Assembly (NCBI RefSeq): GCF_003478035.1 | Contig: NZ_QUEP01000010.1 | Location: 62,334 to 126,333 of the forward strand | Length of the DNA stretch: 64,000 nucleotides | DNA from: Clostridium sp. OF03-18AA | Lineage (GTDB): Bacteria > Bacillota > Clostridia > Lachnospirales > Lachnospiraceae | Reading direction: 5' to 3' | Shown: one piece after another, positions 6,922 through 59,629 of the stretch | How the letters are laid out: every line of letters begins with the position of its first letter | How positions within the stretch are numbered: position 1 is the stretch's first letter | Notes under the pieces: generated by a model | Told to the model about the DNA's origin: nothing | The model's input: the letters and a program-made list of their open reading frames with translations, nothing else | The model's database searches: none | Program-made: the position numbers and the translations under genes

Positions 6922-7002
6922 ATTCATTTCCCCCTTTATGACAGGTTCTTTCGGATTATACTTGCGAAATTTCAGACCATTCCACGATTCATAGTTGATT
7001 TT

Positions 7003-7031
7003 ATTATACGGCTTTGCTGTTCCACCCGCAA
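7003..7031 (-). promoter_or_regulatory. Sigma-A-like promoter of the 2010-residue surface protein
   Basis: On the - strand TTGCGG and TATAAT are separated by exactly 17 bp, about 80 bp upstream of the start codon. The -35 is poor (TTG only well matched), which fits an activated promoter, and a direct repeat lies just upstream. Confidence 0.5.
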
Positions 7032-7043
7032 TTCTTTCTACAC

Positions 7044-7076
7044 AAGATGTCAAAATTCCGCATAAGATGTCAAAAT
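7044..7076 (-). promoter_or_regulatory. Direct-repeat activator-site candidate (two copies, 20-bp period)
   Basis: Two identical 13-bp copies of AAGATGTCAAAAT (+ strand) start exactly 20 bp apart. The proximal copy ends 12 bp upstream of the -35. The same 13-mer lies at the same distance from the -35 ahead of the other giant surface gene (40189-40201). Two same-face direct repeats next to a weak -35 are typical of response-regulator activation; the regulator is unknown and none is encoded nearby. Confidence 0.55.
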
Positions 7077-28319: not shown

Positions 28320-28946
28320 TTATTTGATGAAACTTACCTGCGGATAGATTTCCTCTAACGCCTTGTCTTTTTTCTCATTAAATGTAACCTTATTTTCCTC
28401 GAAGAGATTTCTTCCGTCCGGATCGATCGAAACGATGAGCGGTCCCAGTTCGTTTACCTCACAGTGCCACAGCGTTTCCGGCATTCCGAGATCCCTCCAC
28501 TGTGCCTCCACGATCCTCTCTACATGAGTCGCAGCCACAACCGCGCATCCGGCCGGGAATACACAGTGGATCGCTTTGAAATTCTTACATGCACATTCCG
28601 TATTCGGTCCCATTCCGCCTTTTCCGATGATCACGCGGACCCCGGTCTGTTCCACAAACTCTTTTTCAAACTTTTCCATTCTCATACTTGTCGTCGGTCC
28701 GATGGAAACCATCTCAAACTGGTCATTTTCAAGCGGCCGGATGATCGGTCCGGCATGGAAGATCGCTGCATCCTTTACATCGACCGGGAGTTCCCTGTGC
28801 TCTTCCACGAGACGGCGGTGTGCCACATCGCGGCAGGTCGTCATGCTTCCGTTTAAATATACGATATCACCGACATGGATTCCTTCCAGATCCTCAGCGC
28901 TGATCGGTGTTGTCAGAATTTTTTTTCCGTTCTTTACCTCAACCAT
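28320..28946 (-). CDS. ttdB: L(+)-tartrate dehydratase beta subunit
   Basis: The 208-residue protein matches E. coli TtdB closely in remembered sequence: [87 protein letters not shown]. This is the C-terminal-type domain of class I (Fe-S) fumarase/tartrate dehydratase, carrying substrate-binding residues. It pairs with TtdA to convert L-tartrate to oxaloacetate. Its ATG overlaps the ttdA stop codon region, indicating translational coupling. Confidence 0.92.
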
Positions 28947-29848
28947 TATAAAGTCACCTCCGAATGTGTTGTGATCGTGTAATTTAAGTCTTTATCAAAG
29001 ATAATGTGTCCGCGGCGGTGGGACCAGCATCCAACATTTACTGCTACACCGATGGCAGATGGATGTCTTGCGGTATTCTCGATATTAACACCCATAACAG
29101 ATGCTTTTCCGCCCATTCCCTGCGGTCCGAGACCGATATCATTGATACCTTTTTCAAGAAGTGCTTCCATCTTTGCAGCGCGCTCATTCTCATTGTGGCT
29201 TCCGATCGGACGCATCAGTGCTTTCTTGGAAAGAAGTGCTGCGGTCTCGACAGATGTTGCGACGCCGACGCCAACAAGAAGCGGAGGACATGCGTTTAAG
29301 CCATAGCTTGTCATAACGTCAAGGACGAATTTCGCGACGCCCTCATATCCGGCACCTGGCATTAAAACCATCGCCTTTCCAGGAAGTGTGCATCCGCCGC
29401 CTGCCATGTAGACATAGATCTCACACTGGTCGCTGTTCGGGACGATATCCCAGAATACGGTCGGTGTTCCTTTTCCGACGTTCTTTCCGGTGTTGTACTC
29501 ATCAAAAGTCTCAACACTGTTGTGGCGGAGCGGGGCATCCACAGTCGCACGGACAACCGCTTCCTTTAAAAGAACTTCCAGATCATCGATCAGCGGGAAC
29601 TTTGTTCCGCATTTTACCCAGAACTGGATCACACCGGTATCCTGACAGCTCGGTCTGTTTAACTCAGAGGCTAATCTCTGGTTTAAGTTCATTGTCTCAT
29701 AGATGGACTTTGCAAGCGGGTTTGTCTCCGCCTCTGCTAATTCTGAAATTTTTGCCTTTACATCGTCCGGGAGATGCTTTCCGATATAGTCCGTAAAATG
29801 GGCGATATATGTGGTAAGTTTCTCCACCTGCTCCTCTCTGTTCATCAT
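28946..29848 (-). CDS. ttdA: L(+)-tartrate dehydratase alpha subunit, 4Fe-4S
   Basis: The 300-residue protein holds the iron-sulfur domain of class I hydro-lyases. Cluster cysteines are Cys68 (NRPSCQDTG), Cys187 (NACPPLL) and Cys274 (VGCWSHRRG), and the sequence tracks E. coli TtdA ([37 protein letters not shown]). With TtdB it dehydrates L-tartrate; a fumarase role is less likely given the resemblance to Ttd and the operon. Two tandem ATGs follow AAGGAGG; either may start. The cluster is oxygen-sensitive, consistent with an anaerobe. Confidence 0.92.
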
Positions 29849-29979: not shown

Positions 29980-30036
29980 AAAATAAAACAGTATGATGAA
30001 AAAGTCAATACCAATTTTACTTTTTCATCATACTGT
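29980..30036 (-). promoter_or_regulatory. ttdA promoter overlapping an 18-bp inverted repeat (possible gntR terminator)
   Basis: TTGACT, 17 bp, TATTTT reads on the - strand. A perfect inverted repeat, ACAGTATGATGAAAAAGT (29988-30005) and its complement (30019-30036), has one arm inside the promoter spacer. On the - strand the same hairpin is followed by TTTTATTTT, 45 nt after the gntR stop, so it may instead end gntR. It may serve both roles. Confidence 0.55.
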
Positions 30037-33466: not shown

Positions 33467-36400
33467 TTATTTTGTCTTTCCGTCCCAGCTGCCATCTTCC
33501 GTCACAAAATACTCATCCGGCGTTTTTCTTCCGATAAACATCATTCCTCTTGTTCCATCAGAAACCGGATTGAAGAAATACCATCTTTCATTGATGAGTA
33601 CCCAGCCAGTCTGCATTCCGGAATTTTCGTCCATATAGAACCAGCCCCTATAACCGGCATCATAGAAAAGTCCAACACGCAGATATCCCTGCTCATCAAA
33701 TGTATACCAGCTTCCGTTGATCAGTTCCCACTGATGCTCAACCGTCTGCATATTATCGTGCTCTCCCACGATCATCTTTCCTGCCGCATAACTGCCATCG
33801 CTGTATCTCAGCCACCAGCCATTCTTATCCTTCATCCAATGGCTGTGTCCATCGTTTACCGCTTTGTTCGCAGCGCCCGGGATAATTCCCTTTACAGGAT
33901 CAATATATCCCTTTTTACTGTCACGGCTGATATCCGGCTTTCTTTCACTGATCTCCGGTTTGGAAGAGTCTGAACTGGATGAACCAGTTCCACTTCCTGG
34001 TCTTGAGCCATTGTTTTCTCCAGAATTTCCACCATCTCCAGGCTTTGTGCCGTTATCTTCTCCAGCATTTCCGCCATCTCCAGGCTTTGTGCCGTTGTCT
34101 CCTCCAGTATTCCCGCCATCTCCGGGCTTCTCCGGTCCGTCCACAGGCGGCTTTTCTGCCAGTTTCGGAGTTCTTCCGGAAACCTCCGCCGCAGGTCCCG
34201 CATTTTCTGTCTCCGTCTCCTTCAGACGGATCCATCCGTGATACAGGGTATCCGGCTGGCAGTCATCTTTCCGGTTGTTGTCTGACCAGGTGGTACCGTC
34301 AAAACTGTACTCTGCGCCCTCGACAGCCCCGATCTCAGCTGTGAATGTTTTTTCATCACCATTCAGCTGGAACGTAATCGTTCCCGCAATCGGATGCTGC
34401 TCATTCTTGTCATTCAGAGAGATTACGACCTGAATATCCGGTATCTCATAGTTTTCCGTAAGAACGCCACTGACCCGGATCACTGCTGATGCTCCGATCT
34501 GTAATCTGTCATTCTTCTTCAGCGCGAATTTTAACTGCGTCCCCTCTACGGCAATTTTCTCTTCCAGGATGCCGGACTCATCAGATATAATATCGGCATT
34601 TCCGCCAGAAATCTCTCCACAGTCTTCCGGGAATCCGGAAAGAACGATCTCCTGCTCTCCGCTTATTCCATAGCTGTACGCCTCAGAGATCTCCGGAACA
34701 GAGGGCGCTTCGGCTTTTTTGATGCTCTGTCCATCAAGAATGAACTTTCCTGTTTGATCCAGAACGTAATTCTTTGCATTTTCCGTATCGGATAAGGAAA
34801 CCTCTACAAAAGCTTTTTTATCTGTTCCCGCATTTGCATCTTCAAATTCTGCTGCTGCAGAATAATCCTTTGACTCCAGAGTATCTCCGTTTGCAAGACC
34901 GCCAAAGCTTACTGATCTCACATTCACGTCAGTTCTTCCGTCATAGATTTTTTCCTCCAGTACAATGCCCGCCACAATCACCGTTTTGGGAATAATATTC
35001 CAGGAAGAAATATTCTCTCCTTTCTGTGAGTCATCCTCATAAAAAGCTTTTACAAGATAACTTCCCACTGTTTTCGGTGCTTCCGTACTCCATGTATTTC
35101 CACCATCCACACTGTACGTGTAAGCCCATGTCTCATCTCCATCCACATTTCCCGCAAATGTTCCCTTCGGAACTGGTGAGCTGCCATATTCCACATCAGG
35201 TATCGTCACAGATATCTGCTTATCCACGATCGTTTTGTCTGCCACTGTCACCGTTTTTGTCTCGGAAGTTTCAATATATCTGCCATCAACAGCAGCTGTT
35301 TTCGCCGTGATCGTGATGATCGTCCCGACAGCGGTCCCAATAGGGATCTGGATCTCATTTCCTGAAGCAGTCTGCTCAGCTCCATCCCCGATCTGATAAG
35401 AAATTCGGATCTCCGGTACATCCTCAAGTGCAGGAGAAAACGCATTTTTCGCTTTTGCCGAAACAGTTATCCACTTTCCTGCAACCTGTGTCTCCCGGTC
35501 AAGCTCCATAGTGAGATCTGGTTTTGCCGCCGAAACAGTAACCGAAACTTCTTTTTCAGTCGCTCCCGTGTAGTTTTTCGTATCCTCCGGGGTAAATACT
35601 ACTGCGCAGGATGTATCTGGATAAAGTACAGAATCTGGATCCTTAAAGCTCCATTTTCCATCCACGATCATCTGCCCTAATCTATAATTTGGATTGATCA
35701 CCTTTCCTCCAGAGATCACCGCATCTTTCAGGGACTGTCCATACTGAATATTTACCGCAGGATCCTCCTCGACTCTCGGAGTTGCCGGCAAAACTTTAAT
35801 CTTAATTTTATTGTAGATCGTCTCATATGTATCGCGGTACTCTGGCTTTGGCGTAAAGTGGCACAGAGCTTCATCTGTTCCCACTTCCGGCCATGCGACA
35901 TCAAAACCAAAGTCTCCAGGTATATCTCCAGATTTTCCGCCCTGCAGTCCGGCATTTGATGCCTGTTGACCATAATGGATCTCCTTTATAGCTTCCGGCC
36001 ATTTTACAATCTGTGGATTACGTTTTTTTACAGCCACTGAGATCTGTCCACTCTTGACCCGGAATCCGTTTCCGTAATATTCCGCATAGATCTCATGTGT
36101 TCCCAGCGGGAGAAGTTCTTTTCCGATCGGAAACGATGTTTCGCCTCCCGTTGATGTGATCGGACTTCCCACCGCGGCTTTATCTACATAAAACCGGATC
36201 TGTCCACTCATTCCTTCCGGAACCGTCATCACAGCCGAAACAGAATCTCCAACTTCAATTTCTTTTGAATCAACCACAAGACCTGTCTGGATCTGTTCCA
36301 CTGTTACCTCGGCGGATGCAGTTTTATTATATGACCTTAAGCTCGCTGTCACGCTGAGTGTTTCCGCTTTCTCATCCGCACCCACCGTCAGGATTCCCAG

Positions 36401-39400
36401 GGAGCTGATCTTTGTATCGCTGCTGGTATTTCCGGATACCCGCCAGTCCACCGTCGGATCCTTTGCTCCTTTAACAGCTGCGGTAAACTGTTTTGAACTT
36501 CCAGGATACATTACCTCCGTCTCCGGCGTCAGTGAGATCGAAGCGTCCTCTCCGCTCTCATCGGCCTGAAAATAAATGACCGCGCAGCGTCCCATCCTTT
36601 TGGTCTTCTGATTGATCTCCTGCGCTGTAACATTCTCATCTGCGGAACTCAGTCCGTGCATGATCAGCGCTTTCTCATCAATAAAAAACTCCACATCATC
36701 ATTTTTTGAGCCTGCCCCGACACCGCTGGTCGTATTTTCGCCAGAGCCCCTGCTTCCTCCCTTTGCGTCTGTCCTTCCGCCGGTGATCGTTATCCTGCTC
36801 TTCGCCCAGCTATTATATCCGATTCCGATACCGGCAGAGCCCTGGCCTCCGACAGCCTTTACGGTTCCGCCGGAAATACTGATATTGACATTTCCGCCTG
36901 CCTGGTTTGCGCTTCCGATGCCGGCACCTCCCCAGCCGCCGTCAGCTTCCACGGTACCTCCTTCGATCGAAATGGAGAAATTTTTGTTTTGTACACGCGC
37001 GTCTCCGCCGATTCCTGCCGCTTCATATTCACCTTTAGCGATAACTGTTCCACCTTTTACAGTAATGGAACCGCCTCTGATTCCGGCATGATTGATCTCG
37101 CCAGACTTATTTCCTTCTGCACGCAGTGTTCCCGCAGAGCTTCCATCCCCCTGAATGCTCGTGATCGTGAGATAAGAATTGTCCTGCACATACACACAGT
37201 TCGATTTTTTGGAACACATGGAGTTTTCCCCATCCAGGATCAACGTCACATTTGCTTCATCCTTGATCCTGAGCGCACAGTCTCCATTCACTTTTACGCT
37301 ATGGAGCGTAATTACAGGTTTTCCGCCCTGAACCGTGATCTGATTTCCAGTCGTCTCAATGCCCTCTTTCAGGGAGATCTCGTATTTTTCGCTGCCCGTT
37401 ATGGTCAGTGTTTCGTTCTCATATTTATAATCTGTTCCCAGGATTCCACCGCTCACGATGAAGTCACCGGTGAGTCCTTCGCCCTTATACTGGGCTGTGA
37501 CCACAGCATCTTCTGATCCGATCGTGAATTTTGTCGTGCTGCTGTAGCAGTTTTCAAAGGTTCCTGAGCCAGAATCCAGCGTCCATGATGAAAATTCTGA
37601 TCCCGCCGGTAGAGATGCCGTGATCTCGATTATATCCCCAGTTCTATAAGCTCCGCTTCCAGTTCCATTATTTACCGTGAGGCTGTGCCCGGAAACATAG
37701 ACCGCCTTTACGGACAGGCTGCTGTTTACTTTAAGCTGTGCCGTTTTCTGACTGGCCGTTCCGTTTAAGAATTCTCCGTTTCCGTTCGTGATCTCCCAGC
37801 GATCGAAACATAATTTTTCCGAAGATTTATCTTTCGCTGTGATCGTGACAGTGCTGCCCGGCGCATAGTTTTCCTGTCCCGGGGTGATGGTTCCGTCAGC
37901 AACTGTAACAGAATATCCACCTGTATAGTTCGCCTTGATCTCTGTATCCACATCGGACATCGTAAATGTTGTTCCGGAAGACAAAGGATCCGCAAACGTT
38001 CCGCTTCCTTTTTTAACCGTCCATCCTGCAAAATACAAGGTTTCTCCGGCTCCATCCGTGATCTTGGCACTCGCGCTGACCGGCACTTTCTCACCTTCCG
38101 CAAATTCGGACTCTGTTGAGGTGATCGTTCCTCCCGTAACAGTAAGGTTATGCGGTGTTCCAAACTTTACACGCATATACTTCTCTGACACGGGCTCATA
38201 TTTTTCTTCCCCGCGCAGCCCGAGAACCGCGCTTCCCGGAGCTGAGTTTCCTGTATACAGTGTCGCTGTTTTTCCATTTTCAGGCGCTATCGTGATAGGA
38301 CTCTGACAGATTTTTCCTGTGTCTCCGGACACCGTCGCTGTGACATTTCCTCCTGTGATCCGGATATTCGGTTCCGAAGCAACATCAAAGTCTGTCGATC
38401 CAATACAATAACCGCCCTCGCTCTTGATCAAGTTTACATTTCCACCGGAAATGACCAGATTATCTGCGCTTCCCGTACTTGCGCTGCCGGCAGCACCAGC
38501 TCCCAGACAAGTTCCATCTCCATTTGACCGCAGGGTCAGATCACCCCCGGAGATCGTAATATTTTTACCTATCGGCACTGAATATAAAGAGTAGCTTCCA
38601 CCGATGGCCGCTGACCCGGAACCGGCTGTGGCATCCAGACTTCCGCTTCCTGTTATCTCCAGCGGAGTCCCATGATTATCGATCGCCGCCGCAAGCTCAG
38701 CGCCCTTAAGAATATTTCTGCCCTCCAGCTTTAAGGTCACTTTTTCAAGTCCCGCATCGATATCAATTGCAGGAACATTCTGTGCCTTCGGATAAATATT
38801 GAGCTGTTTCAAAGTAACGGTACAGCTGCTCTTGATCTCAATAAATTCACTTGTCGCTGTCCCAGAATATTTCATTGTAACTGTATATGGACCAGATCCG
38901 GCGATCTCAACTCTTCCGTTTCCAGAATAGGTAACGCCTTCTTCCGGAGTAACGGTAATCTTCCCATTTCGTGTCTGTTCTCCATATCTGATCTTCACAC
39001 GGGTTCCCGGATACTTGATGGTCTGCTCATTTCCAATATCGACCGTGTATATTTTGGTTGGATCAACTCCAAGGAATTCTGCCGTTGCTTTTTCTTTTTC
39101 ACTGGCTTTTAATGTAAAACTATTATCCGTACCATCGACCGTCTCTGGACCGATTGCAACAGCTTTCACTGTACTGTTATACTCTCCGCCCCATGCCTCT
39201 ACATCTCCACCGGAAATCACAATAGAGCCCGATGTTCCCTTATATCCACCACCGATTCCAGCTCCAACAGATGCTGCGGCGTAAACGGATCCACCAGCGA
39301 TTGTAATCATACCACCGCCAATTCCCGCCGAACCAGATCCGATTCCGGCTCCACTGTCCGATTCCGTTCCTTTTTCCGGTCCTTTATCTGTCAGCCTCAT

Positions 39401-40108
39401 TCCAGAACAAGCTGCCACCGTTCCGCTTTCAATCGTGATCTTGCCATGTCCCTCTCCGCTGTTTCCTCCGATTCCAGCTCCATAAGCGCGCGCAAACGAA
39501 TACAGGACATCCTGATCAGATCCTGCCCGGATCGTCAGGCTGCTTCCTTCCGGCACATGGATCGCCGCGCCGGAGTTGCTGACTGTATACAGGTTATTCA
39601 TTCCGGAGAGAACCAGCGTCACATCCGCTCCCTCTTCAAGTTCAATACAGGACATTTTAACTGTATTCGCATTTGCGGTTTCAATTGACACACCCTTTAA
39701 AGTGATCGTCGCAGAAACATCCTTCTTCACCGTGATCACATGATCCGTTATATGGGCCGTTCCAGTCGTCTTTTTATATGTGCCGCTGATCGTGTAATCG
39801 CCATCCCGATCAATGATCACTTCCCCATTCTTCAGATCATACTCCTTTGCGGCACTCAATGTCCTGAGAAGCGCATTGGAGTCCGATGCCTTAAGCTTCA
39901 ATAATTCATCTTTTTTCGCCCTCTGCGGTTTTCTCACCGTGTCTGACTGTGTCGCTTTCTCCTTCACTGCATCACTCGCCGTATATACTTCAAAATCAGT
40001 ATCCGGTCGAATCATAGCTGATTCCGCATACACTGGTGATATGATCGTGGATCCCACCATCACTGCCGTCAATAATCCTGCCATCCATCTTCTAAAATTA
40101 TATCTCAT
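33467..40108 (-). CDS. Giant secreted surface protein with Ig/B-repeat-like modules and wall-binding repeats
   Basis: GGAGG 8 nt before MRYNFRRWMAG fixes the start, giving 2213 residues with a signal peptide ending near VYAES. The N-terminal half alternates beta-helix-like segments rich in G-G-x-V and GAGIGG turns with three or so modules of the listeria B-repeat type (GGTITSTESEFAEGEKV, FAGWTVKKGSG and similar). Later modules resemble Ig-like and MBG-type domains. A Gly/Pro/Asn linker of three 14-residue repeats precedes about 125 residues of wall-binding repeats (NGWWLRYSDG, GSWYTFDEQG, ERWYFFN). The last 20 residues resemble those of the 2010-residue protein (PDEYFVTEDGSWDG). Adhesion is inferred. 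Confidence 0.85.
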   Translation of the reverse strand: MRYNFRRWMAGLLTAVMVGSTIISPVYAESAMIRPDTDFEVYTASDAVKEKATQSDTVRKPQRAKKDELLKLKASDSNALLRTLSAAKEYDLKNGEVIIDRDGDYTISGTYKKTTGTAHITDHVITVKKDVSATITLKGVSIETANANTVKMSCIELEEGADVTLVLSGMNNLYTVSNSGAAIHVPEGSSLTIRAGSDQDVLYSFARAYGAGIGGNSGEGHGKITIESGTVAACSGMRLTDKGPEKGTESDSGAGIGSGSAGIGGGMITIAGGSVYAAASVGAGIGGGYKGTSGSIVISGGDVEAWGGEYNSTVKAVAIGPETVDGTDNSFTLKASEKEKATAEFLGVDPTKIYTVDIGNEQTIKYPGTRVKIRYGEQTRNGKITVTPEEGVTYSGNGRVEIAGSGPYTVTMKYSGTATSEFIEIKSSCTVTLKQLNIYPKAQNVPAIDIDAGLEKVTLKLEGRNILKGAELAAAIDNHGTPLEITGSGSLDATAGSGSAAIGGSYSLYSVPIGKNITISGGDLTLRSNGDGTCLGAGAAGSASTGSADNLVISGGNVNLIKSEGGYCIGSTDFDVASEPNIRITGGNVTATVSGDTGKICQSPITIAPENGKTATLYTGNSAPGSAVLGLRGEEKYEPVSEKYMRVKFGTPHNLTVTGGTITSTESEFAEGEKVPVSASAKITDGAGETLYFAGWTVKKGSGTFADPLSSGTTFTMSDVDTEIKANYTGGYSVTVADGTITPGQENYAPGSTVTITAKDKSSEKLCFDRWEITNGNGEFLNGTASQKTAQLKVNSSLSVKAVYVSGHSLTVNNGTGSGAYRTGDIIEITASLPAGSEFSSWTLDSGSGTFENCYSSTTKFTIGSEDAVVTAQYKGEGLTGDFIVSGGILGTDYKYENETLTITGSEKYEISLKEGIETTGNQITVQGGKPVITLHSVKVNGDCALRIKDEANVTLILDGENSMCSKKSNCVYVQDNSYLTITSIQGDGSSAGTLRAEGNKSGEINHAGIRGGSITVKGGTVIAKGEYEAAGIGGDARVQNKNFSISIEGGTVEADGGWGGAGIGSANQAGGNVNISISGGTVKAVGGQGSAGIGIGYNSWAKSRITITGGRTDAKGGSRGSGENTTSGVGAGSKNDDVEFFIDEKALIMHGLSSADENVTAQEINQKTKRMGRCAVIYFQADESGEDASISLTPETEVMYPGSSKQFTAAVKGAKDPTVDWRVSGNTSSDTKISSLGILTVGADEKAETLSVTASLRSYNKTASAEVTVEQIQTGLVVDSKEIEVGDSVSAVMTVPEGMSGQIRFYVDKAAVGSPITSTGGETSFPIGKELLPLGTHEIYAEYYGNGFRVKSGQISVAVKKRNPQIVKWPEAIKEIHYGQQASNAGLQGGKSGDIPGDFGFDVAWPEVGTDEALCHFTPKPEYRDTYETIYNKIKIKVLPATPRVEEDPAVNIQYGQSLKDAVISGGKVINPNYRLGQMIVDGKWSFKDPDSVLYPDTSCAVVFTPEDTKNYTGATEKEVSVTVSAAKPDLTMELDRETQVAGKWITVSAKAKNAFSPALEDVPEIRISYQIGDGAEQTASGNEIQIPIGTAVGTIITITAKTAAVDGRYIETSETKTVTVADKTIVDKQISVTIPDVEYGSSPVPKGTFAGNVDGDETWAYTYSVDGGNTWSTEAPKTVGSYLVKAFYEDDSQKGENISSWNIIPKTVIVAGIVLEEKIYDGRTDVNVRSVSFGGLANGDTLESKDYSAAAEFEDANAGTDKKAFVEVSLSDTENAKNYVLDQTGKFILDGQSIKKAEAPSVPEISEAYSYGISGEQEIVLSGFPEDCGEISGGNADIISDESGILEEKIAVEGTQLKFALKKNDRLQIGASAVIRVSGVLTENYEIPDIQVVISLNDKNEQHPIAGTITFQLNGDEKTFTAEIGAVEGAEYSFDGTTWSDNNRKDDCQPDTLYHGWIRLKETETENAGPAAEVSGRTPKLAEKPPVDGPEKPGDGGNTGGDNGTKPGDGGNAGEDNGTKPGDGGNSGENNGSRPGSGTGSSSSDSSKPEISERKPDISRDSKKGYIDPVKGIIPGAANKAVNDGHSHWMKDKNGWWLRYSDGSYAAGKMIVGEHDNMQTVEHQWELINGSWYTFDEQGYLRVGLFYDAGYRGWFYMDENSGMQTGWVLINERWYFFNPVSDGTRGMMFIGRKTPDEYFVTEDGSWDGKTK
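33990..34125 (-). repeat. 42-bp tandem repeat encoding a 14-residue linker
   Basis: Three units of 42 bp encode PGDGGNxGxDNGTK variants. Units differ at several silent and coding positions, so this is not a very recent expansion, but copy number may vary between strains. Confidence 0.8.
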
Positions 40109-40146
40109 GCGATCCGCCTCCCTCTTATCTTCAAGTCTCTGTCGCC

Positions 40147-40176
40147 AGAATATCATTAGAAAACAAGGCGTGTCAA
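40147..40176 (-). promoter_or_regulatory. Sigma-A-like promoter of the 2213-residue surface protein
   Basis: TTGACA, 18 bp, TATTCT on the - strand, about 40 bp upstream of the start codon. Confidence 0.45.
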
Positions 40177-40188
40177 TCGGTTCGACAC

Positions 40189-40220
40189 AAGATGTCAAAA
40201 TTCTGCACGAAATGCAAAAG
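40189..40220 (-). promoter_or_regulatory. Activator-site candidate shared with the other giant surface gene
   Basis: The 13-mer AAGATGTCAAAAT recurs exactly, 12 bp upstream of the -35 as in the 7-kb promoter. A degenerate second copy (8 of 12 positions) starts 20 bp further upstream. Identity with the other promoter extends over about 20 bases around the proximal copy. Confidence 0.55.
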
Positions 40221-52458: not shown

Positions 52459-53874
52459 TCAGTCTTTTACTCTCGGCAGCATTCTTCCACCGTATCCGAT
52501 TGCAAAGATCTCACCATTCTCATTTTCGAAGAATCTCACGTAGCCATCCTTATCCGGGTTGCGCACAATCCCTAAAAATTCCTGCACCGGCACAAATCGA
52601 AGAAGCGTCTCTCCCTCTTTGACTGCCAGATTTCCATCTTTTTCAAAGATCGTGATATTGTTATCTTCATCTGAACGGAAGGTGCCGCACATCGCCTTTC
52701 TCTTTTCCGCATCCCACTCCGTCTCCTGATAAACAAATCGGTCCTCGATCGGATTTCTTCCATGATACATCCGCATTGCTGCATCCGCAATCGTGCTAAC
52801 CGGCACGCCCGACGTGTTGCACAGTACCATAACGCCCACTCCGGCATCATACGACCAGGATAAATTCGACGAAACTCCTGGCAGGCTTCCGCCATGCTCC
52901 ATAACCGTCAGGTCATCCAGCTTCTTCTGCGAAAGACCAAAGCAATAATGGCTCTCCGGGCGATAATCGATTCTTGGGCGGCACATCGTCCGTACACCCT
53001 CCTGGGAGAGGATCCTTGTTCCATCGATTCCCTTTCCGTAATTCAGATACATGCAGATGTATTTTTTCATGTCTGCAAGCGTAGATTTCAGGGAACCGGC
53101 TCCGCCAAGAGAAAATGCATTGTCATGGTAATCTCTGCCGGAGGTCATGACACCTTTTTGCATTTTGTAGAGAATTGCCGCATTCGCATCCGCTGCCGGT
53201 CTTACATACTCTCCGCTGCTCCGCTCCATATGAAGAGGCTCAAGAATATGTTTTTTCACATATTCCGCAAAGCTGTTCTCCCCGCCGACACGACGCACGA
53301 TCTCCGATAAAAGTCCAAAACCATCATTGCAATAGCTCATGTAGTTTCCCGGATCTCCGATCAGACCGCCGTTTTCCTTTGTCTGGGCATCCAGCAGCTC
53401 AGCTACTGCCTTTGTTCCTTCCAATGCGATCTTCTCACAGAACGCAAAATCCCCTGTCTCATTTTCATCCAGTCCTGCCTTCTGCGCGATCTCATTGATG
53501 ATCGTGCGGTGCATCGGATAAAAGCCCGCTGTGTGACATAAAAAGTGCCATACCTTTATCGGTTTCTGATTACGGTTTGTAAATTCCGGAATATATTTGC
53601 TCACCGGATCATCCAGATCTACTTTTCCGGCTTCGACTAACTGCATGATCGATAAAGCCACAAAGGATTTCGTGACGGACGCTAATCCGAAGATCGTATC
53701 CTCATCGATCGGCAGTTTTCTCTCCTGATCCCGGTATCCAAAAAACTTTTCATACTGAGTCTTTCCATTTCGGTCAACGATCGCAACCGCGATTCCCACT
53801 GCGTTGGAACGTTCCTGTATTCTGGATACAAGTTCCTCAAAAAGAAATCTTGACGCATTTGTGATTTTGTTCAT
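52459..53874 (-). CDS. Serine hydrolase, beta-lactamase class C/penicillin-binding family
   Basis: The start MNKITNASRF (471 residues) follows GAGGAG. Active-site motifs are Ser66-x-x-Lys69 (ASVTKSF), Tyr181-x-Asn183 (SYCNDG) and His327-Gly-Gly (EHGGSLPG), all in normal order. A C-terminal 100-residue beta domain is present. There is no signal peptide, so action on cytoplasmic or imported peptides or esters (D-amino-acid peptidase, esterase) is more likely than antibiotic resistance. The gene has its own promoter and a leader dyad related to that of the M20-capA operon. Confidence 0.88.
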   Translation of the reverse strand: MNKITNASRFLFEELVSRIQERSNAVGIAVAIVDRNGKTQYEKFFGYRDQERKLPIDEDTIFGLASVTKSFVALSIMQLVEAGKVDLDDPVSKYIPEFTNRNQKPIKVWHFLCHTAGFYPMHRTIINEIAQKAGLDENETGDFAFCEKIALEGTKAVAELLDAQTKENGGLIGDPGNYMSYCNDGFGLLSEIVRRVGGENSFAEYVKKHILEPLHMERSSGEYVRPAADANAAILYKMQKGVMTSGRDYHDNAFSLGGAGSLKSTLADMKKYICMYLNYGKGIDGTRILSQEGVRTMCRPRIDYRPESHYCFGLSQKKLDDLTVMEHGGSLPGVSSNLSWSYDAGVGVMVLCNTSGVPVSTIADAAMRMYHGRNPIEDRFVYQETEWDAEKRKAMCGTFRSDEDNNITIFEKDGNLAVKEGETLLRFVPVQEFLGIVRNPDKDGYVRFFENENGEIFAIGYGGRMLPRVKD

Positions 53875-53898
53875 GGGTACTCCTCTCATTTTTTCTGT

Positions 53899-53978
53899 GC
53901 GCACCTGATGATGAGCCGATTCTTACACAGGTGCGCTGTCTTTATATTGATTATATCGATTCCGATCGTTTTCTTCAA
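53899..53978 (-). promoter_or_regulatory. Promoter plus 5'-end dyad of the serine hydrolase transcript
   Basis: TTGAAG, 17 bp, TATAAT on the - strand (53950-53978). The predicted 5' end carries AAAGACAGCGCACCTG, then TAAGAATCGGC, then CAGGTGCGC; GCGCACCTG and CAGGTGCGC are a perfect 9-bp stem. The first 30 bases match the leader of the M20-capA operon at about 24 positions. Confidence 0.6.
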
Positions 53979-54031: not shown

Positions 54032-55327
54032 TTAAAGTCTGATCGTTCCTACACCGTCTTTAATTTCCATCTCAGTTCCGTAAGGTTTTGAAAGCTCTGC
54101 CAGGTATGCCAGTACTTTCTCATCACCGGTCAACACCGGAACTCCTTTTTGCGGCCTTTTTTCTGTCATTCCAAGAGAAATCGGATACAGTTTGATTTCT
54201 GTCACATGTCCGTCTTCCATGGTCCAGCCTGCCATCACGGATAACCAGATCTCCGGAAGCACTCCGTATCCGGCCGTGCCGTTTTTACTACGGGCATCCA
54301 TATAAGCACCTACCTTGGTATCCAGCGGCATTTTTTTATTCATGTATGCATCGTAAGGCTGCTTTTCCACAGTTTCTGTCTCAAAAAGGAAATTTCCCAG
54401 ACTGTAGAAGATAGGCGCTCCGTGATAGATCTCAATTCCACGAAGTTCATGCGGTCCGTGTCCGATTACCGCATCTGCTCCCGCATCCACACATCTTCTT
54501 GAAAATGTCTCAAGGAACATGGATGGAACCGTTGTGTCCTCCCCATCCGTCTCATGCCCGTGAAAGCTTACAAGAACGATATCTGCCTGTTTTTTTGCCT
54601 CAATGATCTCCTTCTCGACACGTTCCATATCAGCCGGGAATGGAACGCTCTCGATCCAGTCTTTTTCATCCAGCACAAATTTGTATGTTCCAAAGGGCAG
54701 TGTTCCGGAAGCCGGCGGATTCTTATATCCATTTTTAACGGACCGCTCCATTGTTGCGTTGATCTTTGTAAGCGCCGCCAGTTCTTCGGCTTTTTTATAG
54801 TTCTCTTCCGTGACATGGTAAATCGTTTCATATCGCAGCGGATTTAATCCCGGTCTTCCGACCAGTTCCGCGCTCTGTCCACCAGCCATTCCTGACTCAT
54901 GGAAGCTTGAAGAGACTGCGATCATTGCGACACGTCCGTTTTTCGTCTCCAGATAGCATGGTTTTGATGCCTCGGAAAGATTTTTTCCTGTTCCGGCAAA
55001 GATCATGTCTCTCTCTTCGAGATTCCGGATGGTCGCAAGAACGCCTCCATGACTGTAGTCGCAGGAATGATTATTTGCTGTATTAAACAGATTAAAACCA
55101 AACGATCTCATATCATCAAGGGTTCTTGGATCTGCCATTGCCCAGGTTCCTCCGGAAAATGCTGCCGGATATCCTTCCTCATTGTGGAATGTCATCTCCA
55201 GATTCGAAAATTTCACATCATACTGACTGATCACGTCTCTGACCTGCTCAAATCCTTCATAACCGCCTTCCGGAAATCTTCTTGTGATAAACGCATCACC
55301 TGTAGCAATCAGTGTCATTTTCTTCAT
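54032..55327 (-). CDS. CapA-family (PGA_cap) metallophosphatase-like protein
   Basis: The 431-residue protein shows the CapA/PgsA motifs: TLIATGDAFI (metal Asp), FSNLEMTF, NTANNHSCDYSHGG, VSFHGHE and VIGHGPHELRGIEIY with SLGNFLFE. CapA proteins are linked to poly-gamma-glutamate synthesis or turnover, but many clostridial members are uncharacterised. No signal peptide is visible, which argues against an exported capsule role. It starts 3 bp after the M20 peptidase stop, so the two are coupled; they may act in sequence on a gamma-glutamyl or other peptide. Confidence 0.85.
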   Translation of the reverse strand: MKKMTLIATGDAFITRRFPEGGYEGFEQVRDVISQYDVKFSNLEMTFHNEEGYPAAFSGGTWAMADPRTLDDMRSFGFNLFNTANNHSCDYSHGGVLATIRNLEERDMIFAGTGKNLSEASKPCYLETKNGRVAMIAVSSSFHESGMAGGQSAELVGRPGLNPLRYETIYHVTEENYKKAEELAALTKINATMERSVKNGYKNPPASGTLPFGTYKFVLDEKDWIESVPFPADMERVEKEIIEAKKQADIVLVSFHGHETDGEDTTVPSMFLETFSRRCVDAGADAVIGHGPHELRGIEIYHGAPIFYSLGNFLFETETVEKQPYDAYMNKKMPLDTKVGAYMDARSKNGTAGYGVLPEIWLSVMAGWTMEDGHVTEIKLYPISLGMTEKRPQKGVPVLTGDEKVLAYLAELSKPYGTEMEIKDGVGTIRL

Positions 55328-55330
55328 AAT

Positions 55331-56596
55331 CTATTTTCCCTCCACAACAGAATTAGTCTCCCCGTCGATTCCTGCTGCCATCATCAATACCATAAATGCC
55401 TGCTGAACTGCCTTATATGAGTCGGTGATCGGAAACTTTTCATGAACACTATGATTCATTATATTCTTTCTATTTTCATCCGGTGCAAACGCGCGTCCAA
55501 GACAGATCGATGGAATTCCTTTCGAAACCGCTACGTTCGCATTTGTGCAGCCACCTTTATGGAATACCGGTTCAATATCCAGAGACTTCAAACCAAGCCA
55601 CGCGGATTCTACCAGTGGTGTATGGGAATCCTGAACTCCGCCCGGAACCTGACTGATCAGTTTTTTATCCCATGTGATCTCATCTTTTCCCCATTTTTCT
55701 GTTTCTTCCCGGCATGCTTCTTCGATCGCGTCAAAAATTTTTGTGCGAAGCTTTGCAAGCTCCTCCGGTGAATTTGATCTGAAATTAAATTTGATGGTTG
55801 CCTGCGATGCGATCGCATGCACTCCGGCCGCAGTTCCACCGTGGAAATTTGAGACACAGAAGCTTGTCTTCGGATCTGATGGAACTGTAAAATCAGCGAT
55901 CTTCGCAACTGCTCTGGCTGCTGCATGGATCGGCTGTGCCATCTCGCCAAACGCTCCAAACGCATGACCGCCGATACCATAAAAGTTGACCTCGTAGGTC
56001 TCTCCGCTTGTCGCCTCGAAGATCAATACACTCATGTCATTGTTATCAATTGTGAGTGAAATATCAATGTCGTCATTATCATTCAGGAAATCTTTCATTC
56101 CGCCGAGGCCGCCCATACCTTCCTCGCGGGTAGTTGCCACAAATACAATGTCTCCGAATGTCTTGATCTCGTTCTGATTCAATGCTCTTAAAAGTCCCAA
56201 CAGCATTGCCAGTGCTCTCGTATCATCACCGATTCCCGGTGCGTAGAGGAATCCGTCTCTCTCCTCTACGCCATGTACCGTTCCAAATGGAAAGACTGTA
56301 TCCAGATGACCCTCGATCAATACCTTCGGTCCTTTGCCGCTTCCTTTTCGAAGGCCAACAACATTTCCACCGCGGTCAATGTGAACATTTTCAAGACCAA
56401 GAGCTTTAAATTTTTCCATCATAACCGCTGCGCGTTTTTCTTCCTCCCCCGTCGGAGCCTCTATGAGAACCAGTTCTTTCTGTTCTTCAATCGTATTCCT
56501 CTCATCTTCCTGTATAAATTTCATAGCTTCCTTTACACATGGAATACTCATTGTATATTCAAACTGTTTTTTTACCCGCTCTGATACCTGATACAT
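55331..56596 (-). CDS. M20 family peptidase (PepT/ArgE-like)
   Basis: The 421-residue protein has the two-zinc M20 core: LIEGHLDTVFP, APGIGDDTRALA, TTREEGMGGLGG, SLTIDNNDMS and a C-terminal MNHSVHEKFP. It should release amino acids from small peptides or N-acyl amino acids. AGGAGG lies 8 nt before the ATG. Operon with capA; the transcript begins with a structured leader, and a LysR gene lies just upstream on the same strand. Confidence 0.87.
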   Translation of the reverse strand: MYQVSERVKKQFEYTMSIPCVKEAMKFIQEDERNTIEEQKELVLIEAPTGEEEKRAAVMMEKFKALGLENVHIDRGGNVVGLRKGSGKGPKVLIEGHLDTVFPFGTVHGVEERDGFLYAPGIGDDTRALAMLLGLLRALNQNEIKTFGDIVFVATTREEGMGGLGGMKDFLNDNDDIDISLTIDNNDMSVLIFEATSGETYEVNFYGIGGHAFGAFGEMAQPIHAAARAVAKIADFTVPSDPKTSFCVSNFHGGTAAGVHAIASQATIKFNFRSNSPEELAKLRTKIFDAIEEACREETEKWGKDEITWDKKLISQVPGGVQDSHTPLVESAWLGLKSLDIEPVFHKGGCTNANVAVSKGIPSICLGRAFAPDENRKNIMNHSVHEKFPITDSYKAVQQAFMVLMMAAGIDGETNSVVEGK

Positions 56597-56655
56597 GCTT
56601 CATCCTCCTTTTGTGATCAACAACTACTGGTAACAAAAATGATATAAACACGACA

Positions 56656-56736
56656 AAAGCGCTCCTTTTTAAGAAGGTCTTTCAGGCCTTCACCATAGCT
56701 TCATATGGCTGATTCTTAAAAAGATGCGCTTTCTTT
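56656..56736 (-). ncRNA. Structured leader candidate of the M20-capA operon
   Basis: The predicted transcript 5' end folds into a long stem: AAAGCGC with GCGCTTT and TTTTTAAGAA with TTCTTAAAAA, separated by a small internal loop. Inside are CCATA-TGAAGC-TATGG and GAAGG with CCTTC, the latter competing with the outer stem. The 5' 30 bases resemble the serine hydrolase leader. It could be a regulatory RNA or a DNA operator; I do not recognise a known riboswitch class. Confidence 0.5.
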
Positions 56737-56745
56737 TATAGGTTA

Positions 56746-56774
56746 ATTATATATTAATTATATTTATTGTTCAA
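56746..56774 (-). promoter_or_regulatory. Sigma-A promoter of the M20-capA operon
   Basis: TTGAAC, 17 bp, TATAAT on the - strand; the start codon is about 150 bp downstream. Confidence 0.7.
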
Positions 56775-56830
56775 ATATTATTCATGAATAACTTACATTC
56801 TCATTTCGAATGAATTTGGCACAATTTTAT

Positions 56831-57706
56831 TTATTCTTCTTTGATACTATTAAAATATTTTTCCGTGTATTTACAGAATTCCTCCAATTCTTCTGTCATT
56901 TTTAGATCTTTCTGCAGGATCAGATACAGAGATCGTTTGAATTCGTTGTTATCGATCGGCCGGTAACAGACATTTTCAAAATCTGTCTCGCTTCTCAGGT
57001 GATCTCTCCAGGAATACCTTGGCCAGATGGCGATTCCTAACCCCTCCTGCACCATGCGCCTCAAAATATTAACAGTATCACATTCAAATGCAATATCCGG
57101 AATAATCCCTTCTTTTTCGAATATTGCGTCTGAAATCGTCCGGATACTTCCTCCACTTCTCAGCATAACAAATTTTTCATTTCTGATATCCGACAACCTG
57201 ACTTTTTCCACATTTCTCAACCACGAATCTTTATGAAACGCGAGACACAATGGCTCTTCCATCAATTTTACTGCATTGCTGAACACATACTGAGGCAGTG
57301 TACTTCGAATGCAGACATCCCACTTCGTTGCCTCTCTGCGATCTAATACCTGAAAAAAAACATCCGGATTTTCCTCCCGGAATTCGCGAATCAGTTCCGG
57401 AACAAGCAGTCCTCCGGTCAAAACATTCAAACGGATCAGTTTCTTCTTCTGTCTATTGTGGAATTCCAACGGAAGCCGTTCTATTTCCTCAAGCAAAGGA
57501 ACCACCCTTTCCTGCAATAAATACCCATCATGGGTAAGCACACAGGATCTTCCGTTTTTCCGGAGCAGTTCTGTTTTTAATTCGCGCTCCAGTGATTGGA
57601 TCGCCTTACTGATGGAAGGTTGGGATACATTCAATTCCTGCGCCGCCATCGTGATATTTTCATATTTCGCCGCATATACAAAATATCGAAGCTGATATAG
57701 TTCCAT
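56831..57706 (-). CDS. LysR-family transcriptional regulator
   Basis: The ATG of MELYQLRYFVYAAKY is chosen (291 residues) because GGGGGAG lies 8 nt before it. Residues 1-60 form the winged helix (ITMAAQELNVSQPSISKAIQSLERELKTELLRKNGRS), followed by a two-lobed effector domain. It is upstream of, and on the same strand as, the M20-capA promoter, a probable target, and downstream of the 2-hydroxycarboxylate transporter. The effector is unknown. Confidence 0.9.
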   Translation of the reverse strand: MELYQLRYFVYAAKYENITMAAQELNVSQPSISKAIQSLERELKTELLRKNGRSCVLTHDGYLLQERVVPLLEEIERLPLEFHNRQKKKLIRLNVLTGGLLVPELIREFREENPDVFFQVLDRREATKWDVCIRSTLPQYVFSNAVKLMEEPLCLAFHKDSWLRNVEKVRLSDIRNEKFVMLRSGGSIRTISDAIFEKEGIIPDIAFECDTVNILRRMVQEGLGIAIWPRYSWRDHLRSETDFENVCYRPIDNNEFKRSLYLILQKDLKMTEELEEFCKYTEKYFNSIKEE

Positions 57707-57737
57707 CTTTGCCACTCCCCCGTTTGTAATGCATAAT

Positions 57738-57840: not shown

Positions 57841-59103
57841 CTACCCCACCATCTGCACTAATATTCCTCCAATCGTCAGCATCAGCGCTCCGCAGGATCT
57901 TGTAACGATCTGCGCAAATGGCAAAAGCTCCATTCTATGCGCACTGCTCAAAACAGCTACATTGCCGGAACCGCCCATATTTGTTGTACACATCCCCGCT
58001 GCGATGGCAGATTCCAGTGGGAAAAAGCCAACCAGCTTTCCAAGAACTGACGCCGTAAACGTAATGATCCCCACGATGAGTACCACCGTGATCAGATATA
58101 ACGGTGTCAAAGTCTTTAAAATTGTATTCAGATCGATCAGGGTAAAGCCGATCCCAGCAAGTGCCGCCGCCGTCCAGCTCTTAATGGCAAACTGCCCCCA
58201 CTCTCTTGCCGCATCCTCCAGCTCTTCGGACATGATGCCGGTTCCCTTCACGAGCACGACCGCAATGATCATCCACGCATACGTCGGGATCACAGGAACA
58301 AATCTGTGTAAGATCGCGCCAAGCTGATAAAAGGCAAACGCAATGATCATCCCGGTGCATAAAGACGCAAATGTCGGCTTCAATGGCGGTGTCTTTTTCA
58401 CCGTTTTTCCATCATTCACCAATACACCGTTTCCGGTCGTCTCCGGATGTTTTTTTCCGAAGTTGTTTAAAAGACCGCCAAAAATAATCGCTACACAGTT
58501 TCCAAGTACCGTGGCCGGTGCCATCTTTGTCAGCACATCCGCCGCTTCCACGCCGAGCGCCTGGGAATACATGGCAGAAAGAGGAACTGTACCCGCTGTC
58601 ATTCCGCCGCTGGTCATAGGCACTCCGATATAAAGGATCCCGCCCCAGAAACCTTCCCCAAGGATGATCCCCATAATTCCTGAAAGCAGAATTCCCATAG
58701 AAAGAGAGATCACCGCCACCGGCAGAAGCTTCACGGTAGCCCTGAGCAGAAGATTCCGGTCGATATTAAAGAGACTGCCGCAGATCAGCGCCGCGATATA
58801 AAAGATCAGGAAGCCACTGTCATTGACAAAATAATCGAGCGTCTCAAGCGTCTGCTCAGGAATCAGTCCGCCTGCCGTGAGGATCGCAGAACCGAGAATA
58901 CAGATCACAGATCCTCCGAGATACGTCTTCACCACCGGTACGTTATTTCCAATCGCATTTAAGCCCTCACCGAATACCATCAACACCAAAAACGCCGGAA
59001 CCAGACTCTTCGGGACACAGCCCGTAAACATGCATGCCGCCGTCAGTGCCAGAATGAGGACATACAATGGCAGCGGAAACCCCGCCACTTTAAAATCCTT
59101 CAT
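57841..59103 (-). CDS. 2-hydroxycarboxylate transporter (2HCT family, CitS/MaeN-like)
   Basis: The start MKDFKVAGFPLPLY (420 residues) has GAGG 6 nt upstream. The two inverted halves carry the family hairpins: TSGGMTAGTVPLS in the first and CTTNMGGSGNVAVL in the second (the GGxG pair). 2HCT carriers take up citrate, malate or lactate with sodium or by exchange. It follows greA by 22 bp and is probably read from the greA promoter. With ttdAB and the SLC13 carriers it adds to the carboxylate theme. Confidence 0.9.
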   Translation of the reverse strand: MKDFKVAGFPLPLYVLILALTAACMFTGCVPKSLVPAFLVLMVFGEGLNAIGNNVPVVKTYLGGSVICILGSAILTAGGLIPEQTLETLDYFVNDSGFLIFYIAALICGSLFNIDRNLLLRATVKLLPVAVISLSMGILLSGIMGIILGEGFWGGILYIGVPMTSGGMTAGTVPLSAMYSQALGVEAADVLTKMAPATVLGNCVAIIFGGLLNNFGKKHPETTGNGVLVNDGKTVKKTPPLKPTFASLCTGMIIAFAFYQLGAILHRFVPVIPTYAWMIIAVVLVKGTGIMSEELEDAAREWGQFAIKSWTAAALAGIGFTLIDLNTILKTLTPLYLITVVLIVGIITFTASVLGKLVGFFPLESAIAAGMCTTNMGGSGNVAVLSSAHRMELLPFAQIVTRSCGALMLTIGGILVQMVG

Positions 59104-59125
59104 ACTCAACCTCTCTCTGCCTTCT

Positions 59126-59629
59126 TTAAAAACTCCGGATCGCATCGCTTCCGTCATCCACGGTCTTCTCCAGACGCTTGATGATCACGTCATATCCGGC
59201 CCTGTCATTCACCTGCACATGTACCCGGTCGCCGACCTTATGCCCCAGAAGTGCCCTTCCAAGCGGGGACTCGGAACTGATGAGTCCCTTTAAGGAATTT
59301 CCGCGGATCGTCGTAACGATCTTATAGGTCTCCGTCTCATCGTCATCCTCAAAATACACGTCCACCGTGTTGTAGAGACCGACCTCATCGTCTTTTGACT
59401 CATCAGAGACCACCTTCGCCGTCCGGATCATTCTCTCCAGATACCGGATCCGGCTCTCATTCTTGTTCTTGTCCTTCTTCGCTGCATAATATTCAAAATT
59501 TTCACTTAAGTCGCCCTGGGCTCTCGCCTCTTTTACCGCCTCGATCGCCTCTTTCCGGACCACAAGTTTCCGGTATTCGATCTCCTCTTCCATCTTCTTT
59601 ATATCATTTTTTGTTAACTCATCATACAT
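59126..59629 (-). CDS. greA: Transcription elongation factor GreA/GreB family
   Basis: The 167-residue protein has the N-terminal coiled coil (about 5-75) with the acidic tip GDLSENFEYYAAKKD, where Asp and Glu contact the polymerase active site, and a C-terminal FKBP-like domain (SPLGRALLGHKVGDRV). It rescues backtracked RNA polymerase. The length and tip favour GreA. A second, conventional greA may exist elsewhere, as this copy is paired with a transporter gene. Confidence 0.88.
   Translation of the reverse strand: MYDELTKNDIKKMEEEIEYRKLVVRKEAIEAVKEARAQGDLSENFEYYAAKKDKNKNESRIRYLERMIRTAKVVSDESKDDEVGLYNTVDVYFEDDDETETYKIVTTIRGNSLKGLISSESPLGRALLGHKVGDRVHVQVNDRAGYDVIIKRLEKTVDDGSDAIRSF

Follow-up and report, generated by a model that had tools for sequence, protein, structure and literature searches.

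The window, a stretch of 64,000 nucleotides from Clostridium sp. OF03-18AA, carries a minus-strand gene cluster in which two transcripts, one for an M20-family peptidase with a CapA protein and one for a serine hydrolase, begin with related leader sequences. The genes were assigned as follows.

56831..57715, minus strand: LysR-family regulator, 55% identical to the regulator beside the leader in L037 (genome G004)
55331..56596, minus strand: M20-family peptidase; nearest solved structure poly(aspartic acid) hydrolase 7ljh (E 6.5e-57)
54032..55327, minus strand: CapA/PGA_cap protein; nearest solved structures 8gq9, 8gqa and 8itg (E 9.2e-68), also 8ith and 8gqb
52459..53874, minus strand: serine hydrolase, Pfam Beta-lactamase PF00144, S12-type fold

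The ATG start of the hydrolase was chosen by eye from the preceding GGAG and from relatives of the protein; the GTG start given in the ORF list, at 53904, falls inside the leader hairpin described below. In a structure query lacking its last 10 residues, the hydrolase was found to resemble S12-type enzymes, including D-peptidases, D-amino acid amidase and beta-lactamase-fold esterases. The sole NCBIfam match of the CapA protein was the MslH lasso-peptide epimerase model at 259 bits, below the cut-off of 700, by which the protein is not an MslH epimerase member. A 2-hydroxycarboxylate (citrate-type) symporter is encoded upstream of the LysR gene (57841..59157, minus strand).

Related genes were found in other genomes in the order LysR, substrate-binding protein, two permeases, two ATPases, M20, CapA and serine hydrolase. 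The relatives with this order are Enterocloster hominis (L002, L030), bacterium 1XD42-76 (L004) and an uncultured Clostridium (L001, on a contig that ends soon past the hydrolase start). Identity to the window proteins in three relatives was 73-79% for M20 and 78-80% for CapA. The transporter genes of the relatives lie between LysR and M20 and are of the Dpp/Opp type. The best NCBIfam models were DppA for the L004 binding protein (155 bits against a cut-off of 1005) and Opp2B for an L004 permease (335 bits against 350), and these scores suffice for the transporter type but not for a precise name. The scan covered the L004 binding protein and this one permease; the other transporter genes were named by eye, and the second ATPase call rests on the ORF list and the matches of the other ATPase. 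The window has no Dpp genes between LysR and M20, and there the hydrolase is preceded by a promoter of its own. It was also noted that in three relatives the Dpp-type genes follow LysR, on the opposite side from the window's symporter. The original prediction had described the two genes as otherwise unrelated, and this has to be revised, as M20, CapA and the hydrolase form one conserved cluster. Together with a Dpp-type importer, the cluster suggests that peptides with D- or unusual linkages are taken up and degraded. The window cluster may serve the breakdown of D- or beta-linked peptides, given its MslH-like CapA protein and poly(aspartic acid)-hydrolase-like M20 peptidase.

We assessed the promoters of the two window transcripts and the sequence that follows them, which comprise the following features.

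56746..56774, minus strand: M20-CapA promoter, TTGAAC (56774..56769), 17-bp spacer, TATAAT (56751..56746)
53950..53978, minus strand: serine hydrolase promoter, TTGAAG (53978..53973), 17-bp spacer, TATAAT (53955..53950)
53915..53945, minus strand: shared 31-base stretch, 24 of 31 bases identical to 56708..56738

Both promoters had been described as TTGAAS-17-TATAAT, and this pattern is present on the minus strand at 53978..53950 and 56774..56746. The shared stretch (53945..53915 against 56738..56708) is the best ungapped 31-mer of the two intergenic regions and begins 4 bases past the -10 in the hydrolase transcript and 7 bases past it in the M20 transcript. The claimed likeness of about 24 in 30 bases at the transcript starts was borne out, and 24 or more identities were reached in none of 2000 dinucleotide-shuffle pairs (maximum 22, mean 18.5). 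The spacers between -35 and -10 agree at 4 of 17 positions in a hand count. Such divergence of the spacers, with leaders still alike, suggests selection on the leader and not recent copying. A degenerate pattern covering both sites, derived from them and hence not independent of them, matched nowhere else in the 64 kb when as many as 3 mismatches were tolerated.

Other repeats were noted elsewhere in the window. A common upstream element with GAATTTTGACATCTTGTGT occurs at 7036..7075 and 40181..40219 (both minus strand; 85% over 40 bp) and precedes two very large surface proteins with wall-binding repeats, as judged by eye (ORFs 889..7053 and 33467..40198); the first of these genes has a second TTTTGACATCTT about 22 bp away. 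The GAATTTTGACATCTTGTGT element is listed as coding (MTSCVE) and looks like a shared regulatory repeat. At 29988..30036 (minus strand) a perfect 18-bp inverted repeat, ACAGTATGATGAAAAAGT/ACTTTTTCATCATACTGT, is followed by a T-rich stretch, placed by hand, and lies upstream of ORF 28946..29848, whose product resembles a fumarate hydratase subunit by eye.

The shared stretch lies within hairpins that differ in size between the two transcripts.

56654..56734, minus strand: full M20-CapA leader hairpin, P1 arms 56734..56713 and 56675..56654
About 56709..56692 (P2) and about 56690..56674 (P3), minus strand: inner hairpins of the M20 leader, from predicted folds
53898..53937, minus strand: short hydrolase leader hairpin, arms GCGCACCTG (53936..53928) and CAGGTGCGC (53907..53899)

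In the M20 leader, GCGCATC and GGAGCGC are paired arms that include one A.A mismatch and one T.G pair. They form the bottom of a stem of about 20 bp, unmentioned in the original prediction, that closes two inner hairpins to form a three-way junction, and UUUU stands at the end of the P1 3' arm. The hydrolase dyad GCGCACCTG/CAGGTGCGC forms 9 Watson-Crick pairs around a 20-nt loop, and there is no U run downstream of this hairpin. It had been claimed that the GCGC arm pairs downstream in both leaders despite base differences, which agrees with the 9 perfect pairs of the hydrolase and the approximately 20 of M20. GCGC-based arms pair in both leaders, but the original description needs correction in that the stem sizes differ, and so does the placement of TAAGAATC, which is loop in the hydrolase leader and mostly stem in the M20 leader.

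The 84 nucleotides past the M20 promoter fold best of 22 promoter-like sites in the window (-27.4 kcal/mol, median -13.5), and the four other low-fold-energy promoters that were inspected by eye were found to be unlike the leader. The hydrolase hairpin has a fold z-score of -2.49 (5 of 200 shuffles as good), or -3.43 with four more bases (1 of 200). The 84 nucleotides past the hydrolase promoter reach -18.8 kcal/mol and rank 7th of the 22 sites, and the short hairpin is therefore notable for its likeness to the M20 leader and not for its stability.

A short-word BLAST search of the loci in hand with both window leaders matched L001 and L004 about 6 kb upstream of M20, directly ahead of the substrate-binding-protein gene that comes first in the operon. 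In L001, L002 and L004, the operon transcripts open with AAAGCGCTTCTTTTTAAGAA or a variant, directly past the TTGGAC-TATAAT promoter of the orthologous operon. Their leaders close two inner hairpins, of the CCAT/ATGG and GGGG/CCCC types, and carry on the 3' side TTCTTAAAAAGGAGCGC or a variant, followed by a T run. Further copies were thus found near hydrolase and peptidase genes, the check proposed with the original prediction, and they head the orthologous operon in three other genomes. The distance from the -10 to GCGC is 14-16 bp in all four operon promoters. P1 is preceded by 2-7 unpaired nucleotides, counted from the assumed +1, in four of the five leaders (window M20, window hydrolase, L001 and L002); folding predictions for L004 at full length place the outermost 5' bases in other pairings, and nucleotides 5-10 of the L002 leader are largely unpaired in the ensemble. 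In the stabilizing 5' stem-loops of ompA, papA and aprE, structure matters more than loop sequence. Among the four operon copies the loops and junction vary in sequence and length, a pattern that would be expected of a structural element. Short frames that start at ATGG in P2 can be read by eye in all four leaders; these were rejected as an upstream ORF, their lengths being unlike and no ribosome-binding site being visible.

A covariance model (R1) was built from the L001 and L004 leaders only, with those of the window M20 and L002 left out. R1 found the window M20 leader at 51.6 bits (E 2.7e-11) and the L002 leader at 34.1 bits (E 1.5e-6). Terminator-like hairpins score 23-38 bits with this model, so that the L002 assignment depends on position and context no less than on the score. 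As expected of a palindrome, the sites from which R1 was built are matched on the antisense strand too. MFE z-scores were -4.55 for the window M20 leader, -7.32 for L004, -7.51 for L001 and -3.39 for L002, and none of 200 shuffles folded as well for any of the four.

The covariation proposed as a check on homologues was found to be weak. Pairing is kept in L002 though much of P1 has changed in both arms, and the hydrolase copy keeps its pairs through changes from T-A or T-G to A-T and from T-A to G-C. The alignment of four sequences contains two two-sided pair changes, a number matched by 30 of 500 shuffles, and 92.6% paired cells, matched by 11 of 500. A +2 slide of the alignment exceeds the true register both in covariation score and in pair types, and a +3 slide does so in two-sided pairs. 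A wobble asymmetry of 15 G-U against 4 A-C over all helices was given little weight, as the helix borders come from sense-strand folds and several of the G-U pairs share ancestry; more weight was placed on comparing sense with antisense folding, where the operon leaders divide 3 to 1.

We also considered whether the hydrolase dyad is a decayed or chance look-alike, with only the M20 leader functional. The dyad is short, has neither junction nor LysR box, ranks 7th by fold energy, and is absent from the R1 matches at E <= 1. In addition, the hydrolase of L002 (the cultured Enterocloster hominis strain BX10) has no leader of this kind of its own, and in L004 the hydrolase frame overlaps CapA and leaves no space for a separate one. 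We nevertheless regard a look-alike as the least probable of the readings considered here, since a 24/31 identity at nearly the same place past the -10 was matched by no shuffle pair and the 9 perfect pairs include two-sided changes relative to the operon copies. The hydrolase leader instead reads as a shortened second copy of the operon leader.

Searches for additional copies indicated that the leader is rare. Under stricter filters, 5 of 397 genomes of the family matched R1 at E <= 0.01, and three of these matches are the operon leaders. R1 matches beside lysS (G135) and murF (G096), genes named by eye, were rejected as terminator-like hairpins, as was a match in L048. Weaker R1 matches were recorded in L044 (13422-13464, 24.9 bits) and L005 (13.8 bits). 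No second leader copy was found in G001, G002, G003, G004 or G024 at E <= 0.5. In Copromonas (L044), the M20-CapA-hydrolase cluster occurs with no LysR or Dpp match in 19 kb, a distant substrate-binding protein aside, and no R1 leader match was found near the cluster; in G024 the hydrolase stands alone in 19 kb, again with no R1 leader match. The hydrolase itself was found at E <= 1e-190 in 4 of 397 genomes.

Following the LysR protein, we found 1 of 116 relatives of G004 at E <= 1e-50 (G004 itself), 1 of 392 genomes of the order at E <= 1e-70 (G002) and 1 of 2 in the genus of G001 (itself). Following M20 gave 1 of 278 genomes of the class at E <= 1e-120 (G002). None of these searches, whose genome samples overlap, yielded a new leader. 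Proteins 98-99% identical to the window's LysR and hydrolase fall into clusters of 2638 and 3718 sequences, and the window organism may therefore be common. LysR proteins of sister species (P0125-P0132) are 78-79% identical.

Motif searches were similarly sparse. With at most 1 mismatch, the motif pattern matched 1 of the 397 genomes of G002's family (L017), against 0 in the backward control. This match was rejected, as about 2 chance matches are expected by a rough hand estimate and it lies downstream of an apparent T-box leader. A shorter pattern with at most 2 mismatches gave 11 places in G001-G005 against 5 in the backward control, of which those in L011, L013 and L016 were rejected as apparently coding sequence by eye. 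The shorter pattern had 12 exact matches in viral contigs, where no hydrolase or M20 relative was found and the P1 pattern was unmatched. It was separately noted that the apparent T-box leader in L017 (1500..1720, minus strand; G150), recognized by eye, precedes a substrate-binding-protein gene and that the look-alike lies downstream of its terminator. In a Pyramidobacter MAG (L005, about 2490..2580), an M20 relative that is 62% identical has a TATAAT-like promoter followed by a hairpin, AAAACGGCT...AGCCGTTTT, which by eye bears no evident sequence likeness to the M20 or hydrolase leader.

No Rfam 15 family reached its gathering score anywhere in the window. When both window leaders, L004 and L001 were scanned at loose settings, there were only sub-threshold matches to unrelated families, the best being mir-1011 (E 0.016; 23.9 bits against a threshold of 60) at L004 145-198, overlapping the hairpin end. 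In the open-licence literature, nothing relevant to this operon or leader was found. We conclude that this is a genuine, rare and undescribed 5' leader with a shortened second copy. Of the original proposal of a shared leader RNA outside the named classes, the recurrence in three genomes, the folding beyond shuffles and the lack of an Rfam match are in its favor, while the weak covariation is not.

Two candidate sites for the regulator encoded next to the leader were located before the M20 promoter.

56797..56811, minus strand: candidate LysR box ATTC-N7-GAAT (T-N11-A type), 37 bp from the M20 -35
56789..56780, minus strand: second dyad, ATTCATGAAT, before the M20 promoter

According to passages of PMC11739112, proteins of the LysR type have two binding sites, one for recognition and one for activation, often of the form T-N11-A. 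ATTC-N7-GAAT lies 36-37 bp upstream of the -35 in all four operon promoters (window M20, L001, L002 and L004), with an extra copy 20 bp further up in L004. The second dyad before the -35 is an exact ATTC-N2..4-GAAT in three operon promoters and imperfect in L004. The upstream box is the sole exact copy in L001 and in L002. The window holds 2 copies (49420 and 56797) against 2.64 expected by chance, and therefore the argument is the shared position and not rarity. The LysR gene adjoins in the window, L037 (G004), L045 (G002) and L046 (G001), and the G004 protein is 64% identical to that of G002 and 66% to that of G001. Judged from sequence, the M20-CapA/Dpp operon thus has both an adjacent LysR gene and a T-N11-A box upstream of the -35. 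No such box was found in the 101 bp examined upstream of the window hydrolase promoter. Initiation at the operon promoter may be explained by LysR, whereas the sequence shared past the start is not.

The start-site dyad had also been put forward as an operator, in which case LysR or another repressor would bind it as DNA and block RNA polymerase. Consistent with this, by eye the 5' arms of L001 and L004 contain TTC-N7-GAA, which has the half-sites of the LysR box, and the window M20 leader contains a degenerate version; in addition, the conserved TAAGAATC has no constant structural place. Both window leaders also fold equally well or better as antisense: the M20 leader reaches -31.9 antisense against -28.6 sense, and the 47-nt hydrolase hairpin -16.4 antisense against -13.5 sense, where one arm base is missing, or -18.2 with four more bases. 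However, the sense strand folds better by 11-12 kcal/mol in three of the four operon leaders (L001, L002 and L004), and L002 retains the stem but not TTC-N7-GAA. The box upstream of the -35, present before M20 and not before the hydrolase, is the better operator candidate. The operator claim was accordingly not supported, a start-site operator appears improbable, and in our judgement action as RNA is well ahead of it.

Action as RNA could take the form of attenuation, with P1 and the U run as an intrinsic terminator at about +80 that a peptide, protein or stalled ribosome opens for read-through. In the four operon leaders U4-U5 directly follows the GCGC-type base, one G later in L004 and past GGCG in L002, with A's facing the U run in each, and this run at the end of P1 suggests termination instead of protection. 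The base of P1 is also terminator-like, in that R1 detects terminator-like hairpins beside lysS, murF and a wall-binding-protein gene, all three named by eye. On the other hand, the hydrolase copy has no U run, the P1 stem is much longer than usual and closes a junction, and no competing pairing common to the leaders was noticed in predicted folds. P1 was also unlisted by a simple terminator scan, whose loop limit of 8 would exclude it anyway. We consider attenuation unlikely, though more probable than a start-site operator.

The three-way junction at the head of a transporter and peptidase operon could alternatively act as a ligand-binding riboswitch that senses a peptide or amino acid. Here the variable sequence and length of the junction and loops leave no conserved core visible in four full copies, the hydrolase copy has no junction, and the Rfam scans gave neither a match at gathering score nor a near one at loose settings. 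A riboswitch is therefore very improbable.

The leader most likely acts as RNA after initiation, and protection of the 5' end is favored over terminator-type attenuation because few nucleotides from the assumed +1 are unpaired in four of five leaders, the loops differ, and a GC-based 5' stem is common to the full and short forms. Our preferred reading, to which we assign a probability of about 0.42, is that of a 5'-terminal leader RNA of a peptide-utilization operon, with initiation controlled by LysR and the 5' end protected after initiation. Judging from orthology and from where the boxes lie, a LysR-family activator made by the neighboring gene would control initiation through the boxes upstream of the -35. 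The transcript would then open within a few bases with the long P1 stem closing the three-way junction of P2 and P3. In the window lineage, where the Dpp genes are not between LysR and M20, the hydrolase would be expressed from its own promoter with a shortened leader. After initiation the leader would act as RNA that sequesters the 5' end; mRNA decay that depends on this end would then be slower, and the levels of the two transcripts would stay matched. We infer the transcription start, the RNA action and the protection from decay, whereas the presence, position, recurrence and predicted folding of the leader were directly observed.

Several known systems resemble this arrangement in part. 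mRNA-stabilizing 5'-terminal stem-loops are represented by ompA, papA and B. subtilis aprE among the works in the reference list of PMC3997798. Like these stabilizers of E. coli (ompA, papA) and B. subtilis, the leader is predicted to form a stem-loop a few nucleotides from the 5' end; unlike them, it is a long stem closing a three-way junction, is tied to one operon family, and recurs, shortened, ahead of another gene in the cluster. The operon leader shares with intrinsic-terminator attenuators a long GC-based stem with U4-U5, but the second copy, at the hydrolase, has no U run, and no shared antiterminator was noticed. As at LysR-type promoters, a LysR gene lies directly upstream on the same strand, with a box 36-37 bp above the -35 and a second dyad before it, but these boxes leave the post-start dyad unexplained. 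The structured 5' leader on a transporter and peptidase operon is reminiscent of Rfam riboswitch and leader families, from which it differs in matching none at gathering score.

It is tentatively possible, though somewhat doubtful, that the leader represents a new family of cis-acting RNA, in which a 5'-terminal three-way-junction leader travels with a LysR-controlled operon for peptide catabolism. A gene of the cluster that gains its own promoter would carry the leader along in minimal, single-hairpin form, and two separate transcripts would in this way come under one control after initiation. If it does act as RNA, the leader would be a compact case in which one regulatory RNA structure serves more than once inside a divided gene cluster, with a natural minimal form (9 bp) beside the full form with long stem and junction in the same genome. 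This would be a handy pair for separating the role of the 5' hairpin, whether protection, attenuation or operator, from the control of initiation by LysR. It would also connect a Dpp-type importer of gut bacteria with three further proteins, of which one is peptide-epimerase-like, one is an M20 peptidase resembling poly(aspartic acid) hydrolase, and one is a hydrolase of the S12 type.
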